A stretch of 49,718 nucleotides of DNA from the IMG/VR virus record IMGVR_UViG_3300049893_000399, positions 1 through 49,718 of that record; one strand, 5' to 3'. A program made the position numbers and the translations under genes. This document shows, one piece after another, positions 25,545 through 39,422 of the stretch. The notes beneath the pieces were generated by a model. The model saw only the letters and a list, made by a program, of their open reading frames with translations, made no database searches and was not told the origin of the DNA. The stretch is from a virus. How positions within the stretch are numbered: the first letter of the stretch is position 1; every line of letters starts with the position of its first letter.

Positions 25545-25696
25545 TGACAAAGAAAGAACTGCTTGCTCGCATTGAAACTTATCCAGATGATACTGAAGTG
25601 CTTATTAGTTTCAATGATGGTGATGAGGATTTGACTGTTAATATAGCAGAAGTCAAGTTTGAAGATGATGAGATTATATTAGTTGAAGAGTGCTAA
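25544..25696 (+). CDS. Small acidic protein, 50 aa
   Basis: ATG 25544 to TAA 25696. It starts with a helix MTKKELLARIETYPDDTEVL and has an acidic strand-rich second half (FNDGDEDLTVNIAEVKFEDD). This form is common among tiny phage proteins; function unknown. Confidence 0.6.
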   Translation: MTKKELLARIETYPDDTEVLISFNDGDEDLTVNIAEVKFEDDEIILVEEC

Positions 25697-25697
25697 T

Positions 25698-26201
25698 ATG
25701 CTCATAGCTAAGTTTCAAGAACTTATAGTCCAGCCCTTATATGATAGAGATGTATCACCGGGAGGCATTATTATTCCAGACACAGCAAAGGAACGCTGTG
25801 ACCAAGGAATAGTAAAGTATATCGGCCACGGTTGTAGATCAGTCTATATAGGGGCACATGTTATATTCAATGGTTACTCTGGTAAGACATTGGATATAGA
25901 AGGGGAAGGAACAGTAATCATTCTGCGTGAAGCAGAAATAGCTGCTATAGTAGAACAACAGCCAATAGAAATTAATGGCTTATATTTTAGGGACAAGCAA
26001 GGTAAGTATCATTTAGTAACATATGAACAGGCTATGTATCTTATAGCTTCTGATCTTAACTTAGTCAACAAAGTTGATCGTTCATATGATAAACGTGAAG
26101 CTAAGCGATATTATGCTCAAACTTCATTTAATGATCTTAATGAATACGAGGCAGCTAGGTGTCCTAAATGTAATACTATAATATATGAGCCCAAAGATTA
26201 A
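25698..26201 (+). CDS. GroES-like co-chaperonin with C-terminal extension
   Basis: ATG 25698 is used; an upstream TTG is less likely. The first 90 residues match Cpn10: VQPLYDRDVSPGGIIIPDTA, then QGIVKYIGHG, HVIFNGYSGKTLDIEGEGT and VIILREAEIAAIVE. That order (roof, mobile loop region, VxFxxYSG, final strand) is the GroES plan. The extension of about 75 residues is unusual and ends in CPKCNTIIYEP, a zinc-knuckle-like pair. It may help fold capsid or other phage proteins with host GroEL. Confidence 0.78.
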   Translation: MLIAKFQELIVQPLYDRDVSPGGIIIPDTAKERCDQGIVKYIGHGCRSVYIGAHVIFNGYSGKTLDIEGEGTVIILREAEIAAIVEQQPIEINGLYFRDKQGKYHLVTYEQAMYLIASDLNLVNKVDRSYDKREAKRYYAQTSFNDLNEYEAARCPKCNTIIYEPKD

Positions 26202-26373
26202 ACGTGAATGTGGCTGTGGTTGTGTATGCGCAGAGCATACAGATATAATAGATGACATTGCTAATATAATAAAACAGCTGCGTAATTGGGAACGTAAGTT
26301 AGAAGAATCTAGCTTTTCTAGAGATCAAGTTGACATGTGGTTAGAAAAATTAGAGAACTATGCCAAAGATTAG
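26185..26373 (+). CDS. Small Cys-rich helical protein, 62 aa
   Basis: An N-terminal CGCGCVCAEH cluster suggests a metal site, followed by a long helix (IIKQLRNWERKLEESSF). Overlaps both neighbours. Unknown family. Confidence 0.55.
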   Translation: MSPKIKRECGCGCVCAEHTDIIDDIANIIKQLRNWERKLEESSFSRDQVDMWLEKLENYAKD

Positions 26374-27982
26374 TAGCATATATGTACCAGCATCGGGTGA
26401 TCCTTCATCTAAGTTATGGTTTATAGGTGAAGCTCCCGGAGCAGAAGAGGAGATTAAAGGTGAACCCTTTATCGGCCCGGCGGGACAACTTCTTAGAGAA
26501 GCATCCCTTCGCAATGGTATTGATTTTAGTAGTTGTTATGTTACTAATCTCTGCCATTATAGGCCAGACAATAATGTCTTTGATCTGCTAGTTGGTAGCT
26601 CTCAGTTAATAGCTGGTATGCAGGAAATCTTTAATCTACTTAAAACTCATAAACCTAACTTAATTGTACTTCTCGGAAACCAACCTCTTAAATATCTACT
26701 CCCTCCTAAAGAACATATAACTAATTGGCGTGGGTCTATCTTAGACTTGAATGGTGTAAAGTGTATTCCTACTCTACATCCAGCAGGTCTATTACATAAT
26801 GAGGACCCACGCCTATATGCTATCTTCGATGCAGATATGAAACGCATCGCACATGATAGCCAGTTTCCAGAACTAAACACACCAGAGTTAACTATTCATA
26901 TAGACCCAGGATTAGAGTGCCTAGATATATTAGCCTCTAGTCCTATTTTGTCTTGTGATATTGAGACTGTAAAAGCAACTACATCTATTATCTGTGTTGG
27001 CTTTGGTATAAGCGAAACTGAGGCGTATGTCTTACCCTATGACTCTCCTAACACACGAACTATCTTACATACAATTCTGCCAAATCCAAACATTAAAAAG
27101 ATATTTCACATGGGTATATACGACTCCACGGTATTATCCCTTAACGACTTTGGAGTCGAAGGTTATACAGACGATACCATTATCATGTCTCATATCCTTG
27201 ACCCCGAGATGCCTAGGGACTTGGATTTTCTTACGTCTATATACACCAGACAACCACACTATAAAACTCAAGGTCGTGCAACAATTCCGGGTGATACGAA
27301 GGGATGGAAAGCTGCGCGCAATAGGCAAGAGTTATTCGAGTACAACGGAAAAGATTGCACCACTACTTTCGCAATCTATAATAGACTTCAACAAGAGATT
27401 CGGAATGATGGATTACTTGATCTTTATTCCTATGAAATGACAGTCAACGAAATGTTTCGTGAGCTGACTCTTCAAGGATTATTAGTAGATCAAGAGCGTA
27501 TGGACCTCATTCGCACTGGTGTTAACAATCAAAAGAAACAGACACAGGCTATACTTAATCTATTAGCTGGTCAGCCAATTAATGTTCAAGGTAAAAAGAC
27601 GCTGCCCGAATTTCTATATAGAACCTTAAAGCTTCCAGCTAAAACTAAGTATGACCGAAAGAAAAAGAAATCTAAAGAGACTACTGAGCAGAAAGCTTTG
27701 GTCCAACTTATTGGCTACTGCAAGGCTAAGATTGACGAATATAAAACAGATAAGAAAAAAGAAGAGTGGGAACGAAACTTACACATACTAACTAGCATAC
27801 TTAAGATACGTGAACGAGATAAGTTAATATCATCCTATCTTGATATAACATTACATGATGGTAGAGCTAAGTCTATATGGCGAGCTGATGGTACTGAGAC
27901 TGGTAGACCTAGCTCTAAATTGTTTGTAGATGATAGTGGTTTGAATCTTATGACTATACCTAGGAGTAAGATAGAGATATGA
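26360..27982 (+). CDS. Split DNA polymerase A, N-part: UDG, 3'-5' exonuclease and start of polymerase
   Basis: This 540-residue protein begins with a family 4-like uracil-DNA glycosylase domain: GEAPG (23-27), GEPFIGPAGQLL (34-45) and IPTLHPAGLL (136-145). A DEDD exonuclease follows (CDIETVKA about 199-206, HMGIYDS, YNGKDCTTTFAIY). The polymerase thumb region ends with TETGRPSSKLFVDDSG and NLMTIPRSKIEI, then stops. This is just before motif A of family A polymerases, where NLQNIP is normally followed by the palm. The missing part is encoded at 30188-31018. The glycosylase fusion could excise uracil or sense it ahead of synthesis. Confidence 0.88.
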   Translation: MPKISSIYVPASGDPSSKLWFIGEAPGAEEEIKGEPFIGPAGQLLREASLRNGIDFSSCYVTNLCHYRPDNNVFDLLVGSSQLIAGMQEIFNLLKTHKPNLIVLLGNQPLKYLLPPKEHITNWRGSILDLNGVKCIPTLHPAGLLHNEDPRLYAIFDADMKRIAHDSQFPELNTPELTIHIDPGLECLDILASSPILSCDIETVKATTSIICVGFGISETEAYVLPYDSPNTRTILHTILPNPNIKKIFHMGIYDSTVLSLNDFGVEGYTDDTIIMSHILDPEMPRDLDFLTSIYTRQPHYKTQGRATIPGDTKGWKAARNRQELFEYNGKDCTTTFAIYNRLQQEIRNDGLLDLYSYEMTVNEMFRELTLQGLLVDQERMDLIRTGVNNQKKQTQAILNLLAGQPINVQGKKTLPEFLYRTLKLPAKTKYDRKKKKSKETTEQKALVQLIGYCKAKIDEYKTDKKKEEWERNLHILTSILKIRERDKLISSYLDITLHDGRAKSIWRADGTETGRPSSKLFVDDSGLNLMTIPRSKIEI

Positions 27983-28260
27983 CCGGACCTATAACTGAAG
28001 CTAACAAAAAGCCAGATGCGATATTAGATATAATTCGTAAAGAGAATCTAATTCATTTAGGCAATTTAGCTTCAATAATAGCTAGATTAGATAATGTAAT
28101 AAGTAGAGTGCTTGGCCCAGTAGTTTTACCTGCACCAGAACCAAGAGAGAAAACTCCAACTATTAGTACAGCAGTAACTAATTTACATTCAACTAATATA
28201 GAATTAAAAGAAGCATTAGAGACTTTAAACATTATGGTAAAGCAGTTGGAGAATTTATAA
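27979..28260 (+). CDS. Hypothetical protein inside the polymerase split, 93 aa
   Basis: An ATGA overlap with the polymerase stop. The N-terminal helix contains AILDIIRKENLIHLGNLASI, then a coiled-coil-like C-terminus (NIELKEALETLNIMVKQLEN) after a proline-rich linker. Unknown family. Confidence 0.6.
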   Translation: MTGPITEANKKPDAILDIIRKENLIHLGNLASIIARLDNVISRVLGPVVLPAPEPREKTPTISTAVTNLHSTNIELKEALETLNIMVKQLENL

Positions 28261-28427
28261 TGGCTACAAAATATTTTTGTGATAGATGTAATCTAGAAGT
28301 TTTTGACTGTAGAAGTCTTACTAAAGTAATAGATGAAGAGGGAGATAAGTTTAGTATAGAACTCTGTGAACCTTGTTTAGCTCAACTCAAAATGTTTTTT
28401 AAACCTTTACCTTTACCTCATAAATAA
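28260..28427 (+). CDS. Small zinc-ribbon protein, 55 aa
   Basis: ATG 28260 to TAA 28427. Four cysteines in CDRC and CEPC pairs (residues about 7-10 and 36-39) form a classic zinc ribbon, with another Cys between. The stop precedes the Tad2 gene by one base. Confidence 0.65.
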   Translation: MATKYFCDRCNLEVFDCRSLTKVIDEEGDKFSIELCEPCLAQLKMFFKPLPLPHK

Positions 28428-28428
28428 T

Positions 28429-28653
28429 ATGTACAACTTCGGCGTAGCTCTAGAATACATGAAACAGCAAGATGCTAAGATGACTAGAGCTGGATGGAAT
28501 GGATCGGGACAGTGGATTAAGCTTCAACGCCCCGATGAAAATAGTAAGATGACTCTTCCATATATCTATATAAGCACAGTTAAAGGTGATCTTGTACCTT
28601 GGTTAGCGTCACAGACTGATCTACTTGCAGAAGATTGGATTAGAGTAGCATGA
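28429..28653 (+). CDS. tad2: Anti-Thoeris protein Tad2-like (DUF2829)
   Basis: This 74-residue protein matches DUF2829: FGVALEYMKQQDAKMTRAGW near the start, then MTLPYIYISTVKGDLVPWLA, and SQTDLLAEDWIRV at the C-terminus, in the expected order and spacing. Characterised Tad2 proteins sequester Thoeris signalling nucleotides so that the defence cannot trigger cell death. Activity here is inferred. It lies within the segment separating the two polymerase halves. Confidence 0.85.
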   Translation: MYNFGVALEYMKQQDAKMTRAGWNGSGQWIKLQRPDENSKMTLPYIYISTVKGDLVPWLASQTDLLAEDWIRVA

Positions 28654-28718
28654 CCTTTTTCCCCCGAAATACTCTTGATCTTTGTAATGGACTTTATCTT
28701 ACGGGAAGTAGGATATAA
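28650..28718 (+). CDS. Possible micro-protein, 22 aa
   Basis: ATG 28650 overlaps the Tad2 stop and the frame ends at TAA 28716-28718. Short, with MTFFPRNTLDLCNGLYLTG. It could be a fortuitous frame in the gap before thyX. Confidence 0.28.
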   Translation: MTFFPRNTLDLCNGLYLTGSRI

Positions 28719-28723
28719 ACGAG

Positions 28724-29404
28724 ATGATACCAGTCCTAGATAAAGGCTATGTAAACTTAGTAGATCATATGGGTAATGATCTATCTATTGTACGTGCCGC
28801 TAGAGTATCTTATAATGCAGCTTGGAGGGCAGGAATAGATGAAGGAAGTGATAGTAAACTTATCAATTACCTCTGGAAAAATAAACATACCACACCATTT
28901 GAAGCCGTTACTTTTACATTTGAAATCTATGCACCCATCTTTGTTTTTAGGCAATGGCATAGACATAGAACGTGGAGTTATAATGAACTCAGCGGAAGAT
29001 ACAAGGAACTTAACGGAGATTTCTATATCCCTCAAGTTGACGTAGTAGGAACACAAAGTCATGCTAATAAACAGGGGCGTGATCTTAGTATGCTTAATCC
29101 TGAAGATAGAAGTAGAGTAAGTGATATAGAAGATTATATTATCATGTGTAATAAAGCCTATATTTTCTACCAGGATTTATTAGCTAAGAACTGGCCCCGA
29201 GAATTAGCTCGTATGGTGCTGCCTCTTAGTACCTATAGTCATATGTTTGCTACTGTTAATCTATTAAACTTATTTAAGTTCCTTACTCTACGTATGCATC
29301 CTCATGCTCAGTATGAGATAAGGCAGTATGCATATGCACTTAGAGATTTAATTACTCCTATTGTACCTGTAGCAATGGCAGCCTATAATGAGAACCAAGG
29401 GTAA
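28724..29404 (+). CDS. thyX: Flavin-dependent thymidylate synthase
   Basis: This 226-residue protein carries the ThyX signature RHRTWSYNELSGRY (RHR-x7-S, about residues 78-91), followed by an FAD-binding helical region and PRELARMVLPLSTYSH. It makes dTMP from dUMP using folate and FADH2, supplying phage DNA synthesis. It lies between the two polymerase halves, and its function suits a phage whose polymerase carries a uracil glycosylase domain. Confidence 0.93.
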   Translation: MIPVLDKGYVNLVDHMGNDLSIVRAARVSYNAAWRAGIDEGSDSKLINYLWKNKHTTPFEAVTFTFEIYAPIFVFRQWHRHRTWSYNELSGRYKELNGDFYIPQVDVVGTQSHANKQGRDLSMLNPEDRSRVSDIEDYIIMCNKAYIFYQDLLAKNWPRELARMVLPLSTYSHMFATVNLLNLFKFLTLRMHPHAQYEIRQYAYALRDLITPIVPVAMAAYNENQG

Positions 29405-29474
29405 GTTTACCAAAGCTTTAGGCCCGAGTATTAAACAAATTTTCTACGGAAGCTATCCTAAGGAGCTAAAGAAA

Positions 29475-29720
29475 ATGTCTAAGAAAAAGCCCATCAATGA
29501 TACTATTAATCCTCAGCATTACAAGGATCATCCTTCTGGCATAGAAACTATTACTATTACAGAACATTTCAACTTTAACCTGGGCAACGCGATCAAATAT
29601 TGTTGGCGCGCTGATAATAAAAATGGTCTCGAAGATCTTAAGAAGGCTCAGTGGTATATCAATCGTGAAATCGCTCGTCGTAATAAGTTTGGTGATACTC
29701 CATACGTCACCACTAAGTAG
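29475..29720 (+). CDS. DUF3310-family protein
   Basis: ATG 29475 with AGGAG upstream is preferred; an in-frame ATG 29388 would add 29 residues. The motif INPQHYKDHPSGIETITI followed by NFNLGNAIKYCWRAD and LEDLKKAQWYINREI is the DUF3310 signature common in phages. The role is likely in nucleotide or DNA metabolism; its exact function is unknown. Confidence 0.8.
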   Translation: MSKKKPINDTINPQHYKDHPSGIETITITEHFNFNLGNAIKYCWRADNKNGLEDLKKAQWYINREIARRNKFGDTPYVTTK

Positions 29721-30024
29721 TCAAGTATCAGGAGGTTGTTGTGGCTTTCATGATTGGCTTACTTGGCAAGCTGACAATCCTTTTAGGAATCATCCTATTA
29801 GCCATACTATTGGCGGTATTGGGCTTGATATGGTGGTTAGGCTACCTATTTTCAATGATAGAATTAGACGATCAAGGGCCGGAAGATTACTAGTAGTAGC
29901 TATCTTTGCCGCTGCATGGGAAGGCTTTCAGCTTAAGGAAACTGATGGATATAGATGGGATTACGCTGCATTAGATTTTGGTACTACAATGTTAGGCGCT
30001 AGCTTAGTGGAGATAGTATGGTAA
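29623..30024 (+). CDS. Membrane-associated protein, 133 aa or shorter
   Basis: The frame overlaps DUF3310 by 98 bases and includes a hydrophobic stretch (IVKSLVVISLVILHTSPLSS), then HDWLTWQADNPF, an ISHTIGGIGLDMVV and a final WDYAALDFGTTMLGASL. The C-terminal half resembles small phage/YfiM-like membrane proteins with a DFxTTxLGA-type end. The true start may be downstream of 29720. A second, strongly initiated frame lies inside it at 29741-29893. Confidence 0.5.
   Translation: MVSKILRRLSGISIVKSLVVISLVILHTSPLSSQVSGGCCGFHDWLTWQADNPFRNHPISHTIGGIGLDMVVRLPIFNDRIRRSRAGRLLVVAIFAAAWEGFQLKETDGYRWDYAALDFGTTMLGASLVEIVW
29741..29893 (+). CDS. Overlapping small membrane protein, 50 aa
   Basis: GTG 29741 sits five bases after AGGAGG (29730-29735), the best ribosome site nearby. 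It encodes a hydrophobic single span (GLLGKLTILLGIILLAILLA) with an acidic tail. It lies wholly within the other reading frame described at 29623-30024. A holin-like or membrane-anchor role is possible. Confidence 0.5.
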   Translation: MAFMIGLLGKLTILLGIILLAILLAVLGLIWWLGYLFSMIELDDQGPEDY

Positions 30025-30104
30025 TAACTATACTAGTTATAGCCTACTTAGTTTGGTTTATTTGGTGGTGGAATAGAGAAGTAAAAAGTGGAAGGATGAA
30101 TTAA
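30018..30104 (+). CDS. Tiny single-span membrane protein, 28 aa
   Basis: ATG 30018 to TAA 30104 encodes MVITILVIAYLVWFIWWWNR and a short basic tail. It overlaps the preceding stop and abuts the next tiny gene. Function unknown. Confidence 0.45.
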   Translation: MVITILVIAYLVWFIWWWNREVKSGRMN

Positions 30105-30188
30105 ATGACATGGGCTACATGGTTCTTATTAGGATACTTCTTAGGATTATTTAGTTCCTTAGCAATAGATAAATGGATTAAGCGATAA
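30105..30188 (+). CDS. Tiny single-span membrane protein, 27 aa
   Basis: ATG 30105 to TAA 30188, encoding MTWATWFLLGYFLGLFSSLA and a basic end. Its stop overlaps the start of the polymerase C-part by one base. Confidence 0.45.
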   Translation: MTWATWFLLGYFLGLFSSLAIDKWIKR

Positions 30189-31018
30189 TGAAATACGCCA
30201 TACGCTCAGTATTCATTCCGCCTCCAGATTATCTATTTGTGGCTTTTGATTTATCTCAGGCCGAAAGCTGGGCGTCTGCTTATTTATCCGGGGAAGAAAC
30301 CTTCAAAGATAATTTAAAGAATAGAGACTGTCATTCTGCTACAGCTTCTATTATCTTTGATATTCCCTATGATACTGTAGTCGAAGAATATAAAAAGATT
30401 GGCTCAGCCTATATGCCTAGATACTTAGGCAAGAAGAGTAATCATGGTCTTACATATCAAATGGGGCCAGAAGAGTTTACTGAGCAGATAAATGCTGAGT
30501 CAGAGGAAACTGGAATAATAGTATCTCTACCACAGATTAAGAAGATTAGAACTAAGTGGTTAGAGTATTATTGGAAGATACCACAATGGTGGAGAGCAAT
30601 AGAAGCAGAGATAAGAGCTACTAGAATATTGATTAATCCATACGGTAGAAAGCGTACCTTTATGGGATTCTTAAACAATCAATTATTCAAAGAAGCTACA
30701 GCATTCGTACCTCAATCTACAGTGGCAGATCATGCCTTTGGAAGAATCCAGCAAGAAAATCCAATTCCGGGCGGAATGCTCTTTATCAGAGATACTATCA
30801 AACGAAATAATATACCAGCCCGACTCTGCCATACCGCCTATGATAGTTGTATGTACGAGGTACACAAGGCAGCAGTTACCGATTTTATTCCAATGGCATA
30901 TAAGGCCATGCACAGACCTGTTATCATTAACGGTGAAGAATGTTTAATACCTGTAGATGGCGAGATGGGTGATAGGTGGGGTGAGTTATCTAAGATACCA
31001 AAGGATATGTTATCATGA
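30188..31018 (+). CDS. Split DNA polymerase A, C-part: palm and fingers
   Basis: This 276-residue protein begins MKYAIRSVFIPPPDYLFVAF and runs straight into motif A, DLSQAESW. Motif B is RYLGKKSNHGLTYQM, where the usual FGxxYG is HGxxYQ. Motif C is TAYDSCMYEV, so HDE becomes YDS, keeping the catalytic Asp. Together with the 26360-27982 product it rebuilds a full family A polymerase. No start-side intein or intron is visible, so the two polypeptides probably assemble non-covalently. It overlaps the next gene by four bases. Confidence 0.9.
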   Translation: MKYAIRSVFIPPPDYLFVAFDLSQAESWASAYLSGEETFKDNLKNRDCHSATASIIFDIPYDTVVEEYKKIGSAYMPRYLGKKSNHGLTYQMGPEEFTEQINAESEETGIIVSLPQIKKIRTKWLEYYWKIPQWWRAIEAEIRATRILINPYGRKRTFMGFLNNQLFKEATAFVPQSTVADHAFGRIQQENPIPGGMLFIRDTIKRNNIPARLCHTAYDSCMYEVHKAAVTDFIPMAYKAMHRPVIINGEECLIPVDGEMGDRWGELSKIPKDMLS

Positions 31019-31958: not shown

Positions 31959-33131
31959 ATGCCTAAGCGTCAGTGTGAGAACTGGCTTGTAACATTTAGT
32001 GAGTGGGTACTTCCTCTATCAGCAGAAGCTCCAGAGGCATATATATTCTGGAGTGGATTATTTGCGCTATCTTCCGTCTGTCGTAGACGTGTTAAGATAC
32101 CACAAAGTCTGCTAGGTAGATGGGAGTGCCCTCCTCACTTATATGTGATGTTAATTGGGCCGCCCGGCATGATTAAAACCACGTCAGCCCGTGCCGGGGC
32201 AGAACTATTAGATGAAGTAGGAGGGATAACGCAAGCAGCGGATGCAGGAAGTATTGCAGCTATAGCTACGGAGTTAGTTAATACTGAAGATGCAGCGTTA
32301 TTCTTTATCTCTGAAGAGTTTTCTGATCTTATATCTAAATCTCATGGTAAAGAAGTATATGAATTTCTAACCTCAATGTATGATGGTAAAAAGAAATTCA
32401 AAACTTCTACCCATGCACGAGGAATTGAATTAGCAGAGAAGCCCTGCATTAATATGTTAGCAGCTACTACTCCAAAGTGGATAGCTGCAAATATGACTGA
32501 AGATATTATTGGTGGTGGATTTGCTTCGCGAGTAATGTTTATATATGAAGATCAGCTTCGTGGCAAGAAACTTTTCTATAAAGATAAATTCGACAAAGCT
32601 ACTTACGATAAACTCAAGAAAGCCCTCATTGACGATCTTAAACATATAGCTACACTTCAAGGTGACTTTGATATTCCAGATGATATTCTCCACTGGATTG
32701 ATAATGATAAAGATGGTTGGTATCAACGTATGCCTACCCCAAAGAATCCTAAGCTTATGGGGTATCATAGACGCAAGCCAGCACACATGCTCAAGCTTGC
32801 AATGCTCTTTCATCTAGCCTATGATGACACGCTGACATTAAATATGGCAGATATAGAGATGGCTATAAAGACGCTTGAAGCAGCAGAAGTTAATATGTTC
32901 AAGGTCTTTGAAGGACTTGGAAGGAACCCATATATCTTTGATGTTAAGGAGATATACAACTGGTTGCTTCTTAATGGCCCATGTCCCAAGGATGTATTAC
33001 TTCGCCAGTTTGATTCAGTAGATTCTCCTTATAAGATGAATGAAATACTAGATGGTATGATAAACATGAAGATGGTAAAAGTTATAAATAAAGATGGAGT
33101 GCTTCAATACGAAGCAATTAACTTCAAATGA
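31959..33131 (+). CDS. DUF3987-like replicative ATPase/helicase
   Basis: This 390-residue protein has Walker A IGPPGMIKTTSARAGAELL (about 65-83), a Walker B-like ALFFISEEFSDLI (about 110) and a sensor segment GFASRVMFIYED (about 185). Together with a C-terminal winged-helix-like region (IYNWLLLNGPCPKDVLLRQF), this matches DUF3987-type phage proteins that work with or in place of a replicative helicase. No separate primase with a TOPRIM domain was found in the window. Confidence 0.75.
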   Translation: MPKRQCENWLVTFSEWVLPLSAEAPEAYIFWSGLFALSSVCRRRVKIPQSLLGRWECPPHLYVMLIGPPGMIKTTSARAGAELLDEVGGITQAADAGSIAAIATELVNTEDAALFFISEEFSDLISKSHGKEVYEFLTSMYDGKKKFKTSTHARGIELAEKPCINMLAATTPKWIAANMTEDIIGGGFASRVMFIYEDQLRGKKLFYKDKFDKATYDKLKKALIDDLKHIATLQGDFDIPDDILHWIDNDKDGWYQRMPTPKNPKLMGYHRRKPAHMLKLAMLFHLAYDDTLTLNMADIEMAIKTLEAAEVNMFKVFEGLGRNPYIFDVKEIYNWLLLNGPCPKDVLLRQFDSVDSPYKMNEILDGMINMKMVKVINKDGVLQYEAINFK

Positions 33132-33343
33132 CAACTAAACTACGCTATTGGGTTGTATATAAGTATGACTGTATGTGCTGTGGACACTTTGAATATACAA
33201 AAGAACCGCCCGCAAAAATTGCAAAGATTGGTCTCTGCTATCGTTGCGGGCAGCCGTTAATACAAATTAGACCTATACCTATAATGAATAATGCTGATAG
33301 GAAATATCCACCTAAAGTTAAGGACCAGAAGCTTCATCCATAG
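33128..33343 (+). CDS. Zinc-ribbon protein, last rightward gene
   Basis: CMCCGHFEY and CYRCGQPL form a four-cysteine zinc ribbon (residues about 15-43) in a 71-residue protein. Its 3' end overlaps the convergent giant gene by 26 bases, and no terminator is visible between the two blocks. Confidence 0.65.
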   Translation: MTTKLRYWVVYKYDCMCCGHFEYTKEPPAKIAKIGLCYRCGQPLIQIRPIPIMNNADRKYPPKVKDQKLHP

Positions 33344-36300
33344 GTATTGGATTAAAGTTTTCTTCCCTAGTCCTAGGCGCTTTATATTCTCCGTACTTCT
33401 TAATCAACTTCATAGTATGCTCAAATGCTATATTCAATCTTGATACTATTTCATCTATATCATACGTACTTAACATATCTCTATATTCTATGGTCTTTCC
33501 AGTTTTGCCCGGCCTTACTCCTACATCATAGCTTATATACTCTGGAGGAAGCTTGAATGGATTAACCTTAGGATCACCATAGTATCCATTTAAATCAGGC
33601 TTAGGAGATACATGTATATGCATTGCTCCTATACCAAATGTTGGCGGACCAGATCCATAGTAACCATTAACTAGCTTTACTATCTTCTTATCTGGCACAA
33701 CTACAGTATATTCCTTAAGAAAATCTAAACGCTGTCTTAATCCATCAAGATCAAGCTTATCAATTTCAGCTGGACCATAAGTTAATTCTACTGCCTCTCC
33801 TACTTCTCCTTTAAGTATAAATTCTGGATTACCAGACTTAGCTCTAAGTGCATTACCTTGAGCAATTAATCTATATCTTGGATAATCATAAAGATCACCG
33901 GGATCATGTATATCCGTAAGAAATTTATCGTAATAAGTTTTTAATAGACCACGCTCTGAAGTTTTCAGAAAGCCTGACTCTGCAAAATTATTGGGATGGT
34001 ATCTACTAAACTCTAACTCTAATCCAACCTTACCAACCTTACCTCTAAGCATCCCAACTAATGGTACAAAGGCTGCCATCTTAGCTACAGTAACAGCATT
34101 AACTAATTCTTTACTTGGTTTAGCTACAGCGGCAGCGAATAGAGCTTTAACTTCATGTGGCTTGTTAACATCTAGCTTCTTACTACTAAGTTCTACATAT
34201 GGAAATTCATCAGTAGGTGTAGCCTTAGGTAACATGGTCTTATCTAGTATCTTAGGATACTGGTTAGGATCAGCATTGCCTCCCATAATCATCCAGCCAA
34301 TTACTTCTGGTGGATAACCAGCATCTATAGCAGCTAATACCTCTCTACCATTCTGCCTAAGCATTAAAGGAATAGGCACTAAGATACCAGAGCTAGGATC
34401 AACCATAGCTGCTATATCATTCATAGCGTCAGCAAAGTTTGTAGCATCTACCTCTTGTCCCGATGCTGCACCATAAGCTATTTTACCTGCTCCCATCAAA
34501 GCCTGCCCTGCATTAATAGCTAACTGCAAAGCTGGACTCTTGTTGTCTTGATAGTCTGGCCCAAACCATTGATTCAATGCATTCATAGGAGTTAGTGCCC
34601 ATGAACTTAAATTGAATCCTGTAGCTTTCTTAGCTGCTTCCATTGCAGCATATGATGCACCGGTTATAGCTACAGCTTTAGCCAAACCCTTAGGACTTCT
34701 AGTAGCTTCATCAGTTATACCATTAAGTAACCATATAGGCCACTGACCAAACTGCCCAGCTAACTTACCAAATCTATTCCACATAAATCTTGGAGCATTA
34801 GCTTTACCATACATCCCTACTACTCTATAACCCATATCAAGAGCTAATACATCAGCAGCTTCTTTATACTTATGAGAATTAAGCTGCTTATTGAATTCTC
34901 TTACTATAGAAGGATCATACTTATCTAGTTCAATAGCCTTCTCAAATTCAGCTCTTGAAACTTTTCCTGCAACTAACTTACCTATATTATCTAAAGCATT
35001 AGGAGCTATGCCCCAATATACAAGAGCATGCATCTTCTCATATACTGTAGGCTGTAAAGATAAGGCAAATGCTAAATCAGTAACCTTATCATATATATGA
35101 CCAGCAAGGCCAACATGTCCTAATGCAGCTTCCATTGATTCTCTAGCTATCTGTTCCTGTAGAGTTTCATTGAATACTGATGTAACTCTACCCGGAATCC
35201 TACCCATCTCTACAAGTAAATTAGAGCCAGTAGCAATATCACTAAAGTGTGTCATGCCCCGCAGTAAAGCTTTATTTCCCATAGCTAGTTCTGCCATCTG
35301 TAGGCCAGTAAATAAGTCTCGGCCACCAGCAGTAAATCTAGCTCCCTGTGCCGATGTTTCAACTCCACGTAAAAAGTTCTTAGTAGTAAATGGATTCCAC
35401 TTAGCTACGAAAGCTCTAATAAAGCTAATCTGCTTCTGTTCAGGCATCTCCGGTAATTTAGCTTTTAGATACGCCCGCATCGAAGCTTCTGCAATAGCCT
35501 CCGCGTCTGCTATATCTCCCCGCTGAGCATCCAAATAATTATCAAAATACGTCTTGATACCCTTAGAGGCTAGCTTAGCAAATCTAGGCTTCTCACTATT
35601 CTGTGCATAAGAATCAGCTAATAACTTTACTTCACGTCTAATTCTAGTTTCACTTGGAGCTAAGTGTCTATCAGCAAAACCACTATTAATATACCTAAGA
35701 AGTATATCAATTGGATCAGTATTAAAGTCTGTTATATTTCCAATTCTAGTAAGATCATTTACAAACGATCTACTAGTACCATCAAGTTCAGCATATAAAG
35801 GAGTACCCTTTAGATTAACTTGATCGTTATATCTACGGAAATGGGATATATAGTTAGTAATACGTCTAGCTTCAGGTATCCCAAACTCCTTAGCTAAGTC
35901 CTTAAACATTTGTTCTATCTGTGCTACAGCAGCCCGCTTAGCTGGAGTAAAGTCCTTCATAAAATCATTACGACTAGGTGTATCTAATAATATCTTCCGA
36001 GCTAACTCCTGCACACCATATTCAGAGAATTCGCTTAATGGTGCTTTGTTAGCATCTAAGATATTAAGAAAATCACGCTCATCGTTTGTAAGCGGACCTA
36101 CTTCAGTTTCCCACTTAGCTAACTTATTCTGTAATTTCTGCCCAGTAAATTTCTTTCCCCATATAGCTCGATTAAGTCTATAATCAGCTACTCGCTTAAG
36201 ACTAGCATCACCATTGTTTTGGGTCTTAAACTTCTCTGCAAAGTCTCTAGCTATACTAACTTCAGTATCAGTTAATCTACGACTTAAACCATTAGCTATA

Positions 36301-39300
36301 AACTCTTCAGGAGTAGAAGCTTCTAATGCATGAAATATATCAGACCGATCTGCACTATCCATACCCTTAAGTAATCCCTTAGCTAAATCTTCAACCTTCT
36401 TTAGCCAAGGCATACGAGCAGCATTGAACTTTAATCCAGCCCGCTGATGTTCTAATATAGCACCAGCAATGTCTGAGCTAGGATTAAGATTACCTAAGGC
36501 TCTAGCTAATGTAACTGTATGATGTATAGGGTAAGTGAGTAGTCTAACATAATCAGCAAAGCGTCTAGTAATAGAAGAATGTGTATCACTAGCTAATGAT
36601 TCACCAAACGTTCTTGGGTTACCCTTAGCTGGAGGTAATAGCGTACTTCCACCAATACTAAAGGCATCAGTATAATCTGGTAATGCTTCTGATAATTTTT
36701 CTAGGTTATCATATACACCTATAACCTGTCCTGTGGTGCGGTTGTAGACCATCATCCTCCCGCCTGAGACTCTTTCGGCGCTCAAACCCCCAGCAGCCAG
36801 CCTAGAAGCCACCGAGAGCGATTCTTTTTCCTGAGCTTCCCTTACTGACGCCTGATTCTTTTTAAACGTTCCTAGCTCATCCTCGCTCAATTGGCGGGGA
36901 TCGACCCCGACTGGCGCTCTAGTGCTCTGCCCATACATATCTTCATGGTAAACAATACCACCATCATACCACACACGCTCTAAATTAGGAGCATGTTTAA
37001 CTTGTGTACGTGGAGCATTGACTTGCTTACCATCTTCCAATGATTGAAGAATAACTCTATCACCAGTAGAGGTAACAAAGCTATGTTCCTTACCCTTATA
37101 GATTACTAACTCTTTAGGTATAAATCCATGCTCCTTAAAACTCTTAATTACTTCTGGAGGTAACTGAACAACTGGAGCATTTTTATCTACTATGTTAAGA
37201 TTGTCACCATTAAAGATTACATAGTTATGTGTAGCAGCCTCATTTGCTAAAGTAGATCTAGAAAAGTTATCTTTAAACTTTATACCCTTAACACCTAAAT
37301 CAGAAAGAAGCATTGATGCAGCTTCATCTGTACGCTTATACTTACCTAATACTTTAGTGTTAAGGTTCTCTATAACATCACCAAGCTTATCAATATTACG
37401 ATCCATGATTAGTGGAGCATAATCCTGTAAGCCTAGCTTAGTTATAGCATCAGTTAATTCTGCATCCGTAGTATTTGGACGCTTTGATAATATCTCATAA
37501 ACAGTTTCAAGCCCCTCAGCTTTACGTGTTGCAATATCATCTACTGCACTAGCAAGTTCATGATAAAAGAATGAACCCGGCTGATTCATATCAAGAGGAA
37601 CCTGATACTGCTCAGCCAGTTTAATTATAGCAGCCTGTACTGCGGGAGGCTGTTTGCTTATAGGTAAATCATAATGTAAGAGTTCTTCTGATTTAGCTAA
37701 TAATTGAACCCTTAACTTTTTTCCTACAAGTGAGTTTTTATTAGCAACATTGACATAATACTCTGCAACACCTTTATGTTCCGCTGTATATATGCCCCAA
37801 CCAAATGCCTGTGATCCTTCTCCAGTACCTAAGAAGCTAGTATCAAACTTATCAAACTCTGCTCCAGTACCATGATGAGTTAATATACCTTCTGGCCTAG
37901 AGAATAAAACAGAATACTTGCCCGTCTTAGGATCTTTGAATATGAAAGGTACGGACGCATCTACGGCAGGAATAGGAGAGAAATATCTAAATCCTTCAGT
38001 AGTTGAAATTCTCTCTATACCAGCATTTATTATCTTATTAGCTAATTTAGGTGTAACTATCTCACCCGCCTTGGCTAAAATTTTAGGATTACCACTATCA
38101 TCAAGAACACTGGGATTATAAATATCCTCAGTTAAAACTTCTTTATTCTTTATTGCGATTTCAAATGAATTCTCTTTATTCAAAGAATACTCATGTAAAT
38201 TACCTTCCTTAACAGTAACATTAGGAAGCTCAGTAATTATTCTATTATCCTTCCTAGGCATATTCCTAAGTATAACCTGATCTATAGGAATACCATCAGC
38301 TAATTCAGCAGCAGCCTTAGCTGCGTTCTTAGCCGGAAGATTCATTAAGCTAAAATAGTTATCTCTAAGATTCAATGCATCTATACTAGATTTAATCTTG
38401 GGTGAAGGCCGTGCTCCTAATACACCTTCTAATGTAGAACCTATCAAGGCTCCAGCAAAAGCTAGGTGTAATGCATTATTGAATCGTTCATCTGGAGTAT
38501 CACCCTCACTACTACCAGCTATAAATCCGAAGGTACTTCCTTCTACTGCACCCTTAACTAACCTAGGAACAACAGTAGCAGTTTTCATTAAATTAGCTAC
38601 TTCAGCCCTAGTATATGGATCAAGTGCAGCTAAGCTTTCTGGTAACTGTCCCCAAGACTTTACATTGGTAAGCTCTTCGAGATTCTTTACACCAGTACCA
38701 TAACGTGTAGACTTACCAACCATTGTACCTATAGCAGCCCCGACATAATTAACAGTCGCTTCTTCTCCTAACTTAACTCTTTGAGCTTCTGATAATGGAT
38801 TAAGCAATTCTCCATACTGCTTCTCTACATCATCATTATTCGGTCCAAGTAATAACTTAGGAACTACCGGGGCAAAGTTATAACCAGAAGCAGAGGAAAT
38901 TACTGTAGTAGTAAATGGTGCCACTAATCCATTAAATAATCCAACAGCAGCCTTGTAATCATCATATGCAGGCTTAGCTATGCCATAAGGTATATTACCA
39001 AATGGAGTAGGTATAGTTAGATTCTTAAGCTCTTCAGGAGTCTTATCCTTAAAGAAGTTTACTACAGCTCCCGGAGCTTCCTTCACCATACTATATAAAG
39101 CTTTACCAATCTTTGGATATGTAGAAGGATGTAGAAGCTGTGAAGCAGTTTCAACTAACTTAGCATCAGCCCCGACTATAGCTTTAGTAGCTACTCGTCC
39201 AAAAGACTTAACTGCTTCATACGTACTAACTCCGGGCAATCCACCACTAAAAGCATTCTCTGGAGATGGTTCACCAAGTAACTGCTCTAGAGCTTTATTA

Positions 39301-39422
39301 GTCTTATTAGCAAAGCCTATTGGGCCATTAAGAGATATATCCTGCTTATCAAATGGATTCTCTCCAGCAGCATCAAAAGGATTTGTATTATCCTGCTGTG
39401 GTGCATCAAATGGATTTCCCAT
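33318..39422 (-). CDS. Giant virion protein with ADP-ribosyltransferase-like and amidoligase-like domains
   Basis: This 2034-residue protein is the last and largest late gene. N-terminal NPFD repeats (1-30) and helical regions are followed by an ART-like domain (about 510-750) with HHGTGAEFDKFDTSFLGTG, QAFGWGIYTA and a closing NYVIFNGDNLNIV, as in polyvalent-protein ARTs. A long helical body follows. At about 1800-1980 come VGLELEF, MHIHVSPKPD and TIEYRDML, which fit an amidoligase/GCS-like fold. Such giant proteins are likely carried in the head and ejected with DNA. Catalytic roles are inferred from motifs only. Confidence 0.75.
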   Translation of the reverse strand: MGNPFDAPQQDNTNPFDAAGENPFDKQDISLNGPIGFANKTNKALEQLLGEPSPENAFSGGLPGVSTYEAVKSFGRVATKAIVGADAKLVETASQLLHPSTYPKIGKALYSMVKEAPGAVVNFFKDKTPEELKNLTIPTPFGNIPYGIAKPAYDDYKAAVGLFNGLVAPFTTTVISSASGYNFAPVVPKLLLGPNNDDVEKQYGELLNPLSEAQRVKLGEEATVNYVGAAIGTMVGKSTRYGTGVKNLEELTNVKSWGQLPESLAALDPYTRAEVANLMKTATVVPRLVKGAVEGSTFGFIAGSSEGDTPDERFNNALHLAFAGALIGSTLEGVLGARPSPKIKSSIDALNLRDNYFSLMNLPAKNAAKAAAELADGIPIDQVILRNMPRKDNRIITELPNVTVKEGNLHEYSLNKENSFEIAIKNKEVLTEDIYNPSVLDDSGNPKILAKAGEIVTPKLANKIINAGIERISTTEGFRYFSPIPAVDASVPFIFKDPKTGKYSVLFSRPEGILTHHGTGAEFDKFDTSFLGTGEGSQAFGWGIYTAEHKGVAEYYVNVANKNSLVGKKLRVQLLAKSEELLHYDLPISKQPPAVQAAIIKLAEQYQVPLDMNQPGSFFYHELASAVDDIATRKAEGLETVYEILSKRPNTTDAELTDAITKLGLQDYAPLIMDRNIDKLGDVIENLNTKVLGKYKRTDEAASMLLSDLGVKGIKFKDNFSRSTLANEAATHNYVIFNGDNLNIVDKNAPVVQLPPEVIKSFKEHGFIPKELVIYKGKEHSFVTSTGDRVILQSLEDGKQVNAPRTQVKHAPNLERVWYDGGIVYHEDMYGQSTRAPVGVDPRQLSEDELGTFKKNQASVREAQEKESLSVASRLAAGGLSAERVSGGRMMVYNRTTGQVIGVYDNLEKLSEALPDYTDAFSIGGSTLLPPAKGNPRTFGESLASDTHSSITRRFADYVRLLTYPIHHTVTLARALGNLNPSSDIAGAILEHQRAGLKFNAARMPWLKKVEDLAKGLLKGMDSADRSDIFHALEASTPEEFIANGLSRRLTDTEVSIARDFAEKFKTQNNGDASLKRVADYRLNRAIWGKKFTGQKLQNKLAKWETEVGPLTNDERDFLNILDANKAPLSEFSEYGVQELARKILLDTPSRNDFMKDFTPAKRAAVAQIEQMFKDLAKEFGIPEARRITNYISHFRRYNDQVNLKGTPLYAELDGTSRSFVNDLTRIGNITDFNTDPIDILLRYINSGFADRHLAPSETRIRREVKLLADSYAQNSEKPRFAKLASKGIKTYFDNYLDAQRGDIADAEAIAEASMRAYLKAKLPEMPEQKQISFIRAFVAKWNPFTTKNFLRGVETSAQGARFTAGGRDLFTGLQMAELAMGNKALLRGMTHFSDIATGSNLLVEMGRIPGRVTSVFNETLQEQIARESMEAALGHVGLAGHIYDKVTDLAFALSLQPTVYEKMHALVYWGIAPNALDNIGKLVAGKVSRAEFEKAIELDKYDPSIVREFNKQLNSHKYKEAADVLALDMGYRVVGMYGKANAPRFMWNRFGKLAGQFGQWPIWLLNGITDEATRSPKGLAKAVAITGASYAAMEAAKKATGFNLSSWALTPMNALNQWFGPDYQDNKSPALQLAINAGQALMGAGKIAYGAASGQEVDATNFADAMNDIAAMVDPSSGILVPIPLMLRQNGREVLAAIDAGYPPEVIGWMIMGGNADPNQYPKILDKTMLPKATPTDEFPYVELSSKKLDVNKPHEVKALFAAAVAKPSKELVNAVTVAKMAAFVPLVGMLRGKVGKVGLELEFSRYHPNNFAESGFLKTSERGLLKTYYDKFLTDIHDPGDLYDYPRYRLIAQGNALRAKSGNPEFILKGEVGEAVELTYGPAEIDKLDLDGLRQRLDFLKEYTVVVPDKKIVKLVNGYYGSGPPTFGIGAMHIHVSPKPDLNGYYGDPKVNPFKLPPEYISYDVGVRPGKTGKTIEYRDMLSTYDIDEIVSRLNIAFEHTMKLIKKYGEYKAPRTREENFNPIPMDEASGP

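Follow-up and report, generated by a model that had tools for sequence, protein, structure and literature searches.

How does a phage replicate its genome when the gene for its DNA polymerase stops within the palm domain, and the remainder of the enzyme is encoded in a second open reading frame lying beyond a run of unrelated genes? This question is raised by IMG/VR virus record IMGVR_UViG_3300049893_000399, positions 1 to 49,718 of which were analyzed (this whole 49,718-nucleotide stretch is referred to below as the window). A preliminary description of the window had reported a 540-residue and a 276-residue product, broken just before motif A, and both are indeed found: the N-subunit has NLMTIPRSKIEI at its C-terminal end, followed by a stop codon, and the C-subunit starts with MKYAIRSVFIPP. 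The two genes and their landmarks are as follows.

26360..27982, plus strand: N-subunit gene, 540 aa, with a family-4-like UDG, a 3'-5' exonuclease, the thumb and the first part of the PolA palm (open reading frame list, Pfam, PHROG, alignments)
26393..26806, plus strand: UDG-superfamily domain, N-subunit residues 12-149, with GEAPG and HPA motifs (Pfam PF03167, 2e-21; NCBIfam UDG_fam4, 1e-23)
26930..27400, plus strand: 3'-5' exonuclease domain, N-subunit residues 191-347 (Pfam PF01612, 4e-10)
27521..27979, plus strand: thumb of PolA with the first segment of its palm, as far as the break, N-subunit residues 388-540 (PF00476 positions 11-124)
30188..31018, plus strand: C-subunit gene, 276 aa, PolA palm and fingers with motifs A, B and C (PF00476 positions 140-381, 4e-19)
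30248..30250, plus strand: catalytic Asp of motif A, C-subunit D21, the counterpart of D705 in E. coli Pol I (alignment to 1kln; invariant in the clade described below)
30839..30844, plus strand: Tyr-Asp of motif C, Y218-D219 (clade alignment)

The palm and fingers with motifs A, B and C, matched by PF00476 and accompanied by the folds discussed below, place the enzyme in family A (PolA), while the family-4-like UDG domain lying N-terminal to the exonuclease and PolA parts places it in the UDG-PolA class. The N chain has a PF00476 match of its own (2e-5), in the part complementary to that of the C chain, and the PHROG profile phrog_17 spans the break, its match resuming at model position 994 after 988, so that nothing substantial is missing from the polymerase. 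Both genes belong to the same operon-like gene string, with start and stop codons that overlap those of their neighbors. As a separate observation, the window's UDG (26360-26410) apparently lacks the N-terminal CxxC pair that is present in some relatives (L010, L012), a pair typical of Fe-S family-4 UDGs.

Alignment with intact relatives locates the break in a palm loop between the NLxTIP / NLQNIP sequence and the IRxxF segment that precedes motif A. This loop is 5-30 residues long among 164 intact sequences. The cut divides the catalytic residues between the chains: those of the exonuclease stay in the N-subunit, together with the first segment of the palm, and motifs A, B and C are in the C-subunit.

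The relatives of this polymerase were gathered from IMG/VR by searching with an alignment of the N-half and then with a split-clade alignment, together with one search of bacterial genomes, giving about 200 loci; a scan of viral contigs with the C-half as a single protein gave no matches. After removal of redundancy, 128 loci carry an intact gene, 22 (the window included) are split at the window's loop, 4 are split ~13 residues later, and 4 or 5 are split at the exonuclease/polymerase boundary, counts that do not stand for frequencies, given that loci were ranked in the sample by how closely they resemble the window. Within this sample, the window and 13 IMG/VR or MAG loci form a single clade (SH-aLRT 100), all 14 members of which are split at the same loop and match UDG_fam4 (NCBIfam). 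Because the same break recurs in these 13 related loci, the split is neither chance nor a sequencing error, and what might have passed for the peculiarity of one phage is real in the window but extends to its whole clade and beyond. No cultured phage of this clade was found among 50,697 phage records. Nearly all of the annotated phages nearest to either half encode the polymerase in one unbroken gene, which the same primase often follows downstream. The annotated phages matched differ for the N and C chains, which suggested chimeric halves; that idea was rejected, as both chains have the same nearest relatives within the split clade (L019-L021, at ~40% identity each). The contig of one clade member, L219 (JACCVY010000265.1), belongs to the bin of a Blastocatellia (Acidobacteriota) MAG, which gives a hint of the host range.

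The break has, in addition, arisen more than once. A second group of 8 loci is split at the window's loop and lies interspersed with intact genes of the Mel-JY34 group; the AU test rejects a single clade for both groups (p 6.7e-6; 28 rows, LG+G4), whereas a single origin inside the second group is compatible with it (p 0.52, for 7 of the 8 loci in the 28-row version). These trees point to at least two origins of the break in this palm loop; the larger tree draws seven changes, a figure that we do not claim. Four further polymerases, those of the cultured phage MEP401 and of L054, L160 and L199, are broken nearer motif A and occupy four separate tree positions, although the halves of L054 and L160 overlap by ~20 nt and may reflect sequencing frameshifts. 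Of the 31 splits in all, 26 are confined to 16 columns of the 776-column model. A second class of splits separates the exonuclease from the polymerase parts (L013, L014, L094, L130, L188).

Taking these results together, we consider it very probable that the window encodes a stable, non-spliced, two-subunit family A replicative polymerase whose chains associate non-covalently, and that the gene-filled gap came later. The preliminary description had likewise thought a two-subunit enzyme probable, and this reading now draws support from the comparative evidence, from a break shared by the whole clade and from the lack of splicing elements. Mechanistically, each chain would be translated from its own start codon, and the N and C chains would dock across the palm and so rebuild the active site, with neither chain able to polymerize alone. 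The ancestral single gene would have been split by fission within a variable, tolerant loop, giving at an early stage abutting or overlapping frames of the kind seen in L019, L065 and L060; with the halves then in separate cistrons, the insertion of unrelated genes between them would have carried little penalty, which would have led to the 2.2-kb gap of the window.

To this reading one might add that the repeated split was kept because it is useful, through separate control of the chains or escape from homing elements, and not merely tolerated. The concentration of breaks described above, with at least two origins in the same loop and four more close by, speaks for such an addition, as does a distinct, mostly acidic tail of 29-45 residues that extends past the break on most N-subunits of the clade (L019, L020, L021, L102-L107, L143, L219). 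The window and L144, however, lack this tail, no regulatory signal came to light, and the variable length of the loop in intact genes means that tolerance alone explains where the break falls; we regard the addition as unlikely, if worth entertaining. Equally speculative, and to be held with as much reserve, is the broader picture of a large uncultured lineage with an obligate two-subunit polymerase, in which the loop would have been cut repeatedly since the two-chain state was itself selected, regulated assembly being one conceivable benefit, and in which the N chain's acidic tail would act at the interface.

A quite different possibility is that the polymerase is decaying, the halves being pseudogene remnants in a phage whose genome is copied by a polymerase of the host or by one that has escaped detection. 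A second complete polymerase gene would have told against the two-subunit reading, and in the window record, a linear IMG/VR contig beyond which a further polymerase might be encoded, no second PolA, PolB or PolIII-alpha gene was found. What decay has in its favor is motif C, which reads YDS in the window and HDS in all 13 clade relatives, a change that could reduce activity. On the other hand, both frames are open and share start/stop overlaps with their neighbors, and all other catalytic residues are kept: the exonuclease residues D200, E202, D255, Y328 and D332 are invariant in the clade, as are the residues of motifs A, B and C apart from this motif C His. The ~40% identity to distant split relatives argues in the same direction, and dN is well below dS in close pairs (NG86), at 0.13 against 1.36 for the N chains of L104/L106 and, for L103/L107, at 0.24 against 1.49 (N) and 0.23 against 4.3 (C), values of dS that are near-saturated, with other pairs saturated. 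Both chains thus appear to be under purifying selection in those close pairs that can be measured, synonymous sites being near saturation, and we judge decay to be very unlikely. A side observation concerns the O-helix position occupied by Phe 762 in E. coli Pol I and by Tyr in T7: judged from the R-K-H-Y spacing, it apparently corresponds to H86 of the window's C-subunit and is His across the split clade and many UDG-PolA relatives.

Structure prediction is consistent with a working enzyme. In L019 the halves lie in one frame, separated only by a TGA and the following start codon, and the joined 852-residue chain (the TGA being read as Trp as a modeling device, with no claim on the genetic code) folds in AlphaFold2 as one PolA enzyme, with pLDDT 92.7 and pTM 0.90 for this linked chain of a relative. 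Confidence is low mainly in the first residues, in a loop near 319 and in the acidic stretch at ~560-587 just before the break, and the model matches the Bst Pol I large fragment with a TM of 0.83-0.85 by target length (Foldseek). The window's C chain modeled alone reaches pLDDT 95.0, and in a Foldseek search it matches the palm and fingers of Klenow and further Pol I structures. From these models we infer that the free N and C chains would bind one another.

Might expression instead be followed by a joining of the halves, through a split intein in a fractured gene or a cis- or trans-splicing intron across the gap? Phage polymerase genes do carry inteins and introns, and two intact UDG-PolA genes in our sample have intein-like palm insertions. 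That of L086 (3612-6698) is ~127 aa long and lies just upstream of NMQNIP (Pfam Intein_splicing 5e-8, below cut-off); that of L047 (5530-8898) spans ~295 aa inside motif B and is recognized from sequence, with no Pfam intein match. These insertions sit at other, conserved places, while the break falls in a variable loop. Moreover, intein models have no match in the 14 clade N-subunits or in the window's C-subunit, the C-subunits begin, in the clade alignment, at or no more than ~20 residues from conserved PolA sequence, and no Rfam intron family is found in the window or ten relatives. In L019, L205, L065 and L060, furthermore, the genes abut or overlap at this same loop, with the next start 0-9 nt from the stop, which leaves no space for an intron. 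Read-through, too, was tested and found no support. The absence of intein motifs and of an intron-like junction in the preliminary description is accordingly borne out, as is that of an endonuclease in the gap: Pfam finds no homing endonuclease there, and the 41 gap open reading frames of other splits include a single HNH, that of L188, whose break lies between the exonuclease and polymerase parts. The window's gene thus does not fit a fractured gene with a split intein, given the lack of intein parts at the junction and the C-chain starts, nor a polymerase interrupted by a group I or II intron, nor one split by a homing endonuclease. We regard post-expression joining as highly improbable.

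There remains the gap itself. The ~2.2 kb of unrelated genes reported between the halves (Tad2, ThyX, DUF3310 and membrane-like proteins) measures 2,205 nt and holds ~7 genes in a contiguous run on the same strand as the polymerase.

27983..30187, plus strand: 2,205-nt gap between the polymerase genes, with unrelated phage genes
27979..28260, plus strand: 93-aa open reading frame overlapping the N-subunit stop (ATGA), no Pfam or PHROG match
28260..28427, plus strand: 55-aa open reading frame with Cys pairs
28429..28653, plus strand: Tad2-like protein, Thoeris anti-defence 2-like domain (PF11195, 1e-22)
28724..29404, plus strand: ThyX, flavin-dependent thymidylate synthase (PF02511, 2e-53)
29388..29720, plus strand: DUF3310 protein (PF11753, 6e-15)
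29623..30024, plus strand: 133-aa membrane-like open reading frame, no family match (Pfam, PHROG)
29741-29893, plus strand: alternative 50-aa open reading frame overlapping the 133-aa one
30105..30190, plus strand: 27-aa transmembrane-like open reading frame whose TAA overlaps the C-subunit ATG (TAATG)
25683..26201, plus strand: conserved 172-aa upstream neighbor, present before the polymerase pair in 12 of the 13 relatives
31959..33131, plus strand: DUF3987/primase-like downstream neighbor, kept in 12 of 13 clade relatives and most intact relatives

Across the clade the gap ranges from -14 nt (L219) and at most 9 nt (L019) through 1,262 nt (L100) to the 2,205 nt of the window, and its genes are mutually non-homologous except in the near pair L104/L106. 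Tad2 alone among the genes of the window's gap has a homologue in the examined clade loci, and that homologue lies outside the gap. With 13 of 13 relatives split in the same loop around other or almost no gap contents, the break is older than what now fills it in the window. That one recent insertion of the 2.2-kb block broke an intact gene in this phage, as the contiguous, same-strand run of unrelated genes might suggest, is scarcely credible in view of these already split relatives. The insert is real, but most plausibly its genes did not cause the break and accumulated after the polymerase gene had already been split. Elsewhere, the gap genes of other splits encode a DHH phosphoesterase, Lon_C-like proteins, a Mom-like protein, an RNase_T and a dCTP deaminase; the Lon_C-like proteins lie between the halves in two related phages (L155 4702-5238 and L163 9629-10168) and are 32% identical. 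Beyond the primase, the window has a minus-strand gene for a 2,034-aa protein (33318-39422), and a giant minus-strand gene occupies the corresponding place in several relatives.

Natural two-chain polymerases have precedents. In T4-related Aeromonas phages the replicative polymerase gp43 is split into two chains, although, unlike that of the window, it is a family B enzyme associated with a mobile endonuclease. Closest in kind are the OM43 phages MEP401 and MEP402, in which PolA occupies two open reading frames with a small one between, an intron being suspected by the authors, and in which the split is common to most of their group I relatives (PMC10580990). MEP401 (our locus L018) resembles the window in having a family A polymerase cut in the palm, between NLQN and motif A, with a small unrelated open reading frame (of 77 aa, the only one) in the gap and no known homing endonuclease; it differs in that the break lies ~13-16 residues further on, adjoining motif A, and in lacking a UDG domain and belonging to a remote lineage. 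Mel-JY34, a Desulfofustis phage and MW202489 are the nearest annotated relatives and share the window's domain order and neighboring primase gene, but their polymerase is a single intact gene. More distant parallels are found in family B. Pseudomonas phage MIJ3 also has a polymerase in two open reading frames, with a reported split intein and HNH endonuclease (PMC6892783), both absent in the window. Methanothermobacter has a split polymerase encoded by two genes and supposed to have arisen by intein excision (Kelman et al. 1999, cited in PMC4104785), likewise a natural two-gene enzyme but an archaeal one, non-homologous to that of the window. No report of the window's clade or of the recurrent breakpoint was found in the open-access literature. 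Since split PolA is already known from MEP401, what the present comparison would add is a clade-wide, apparently non-spliced palm split with a recurrent breakpoint.

For the biology of these phages, a palm cut inherited over a deep clade without splicing means that even the core of an essential polymerase can be divided for good between two genes. The steps by which the products of a gene fission move apart are displayed by the series of gaps, which extends from frames that overlap to an interval of seven genes, and the recurrent breakpoint is a natural, ready-made site for splitting PolA enzymes. Automated annotation and surveys that use PolA as a marker gene will overlook or halve such split polymerases.
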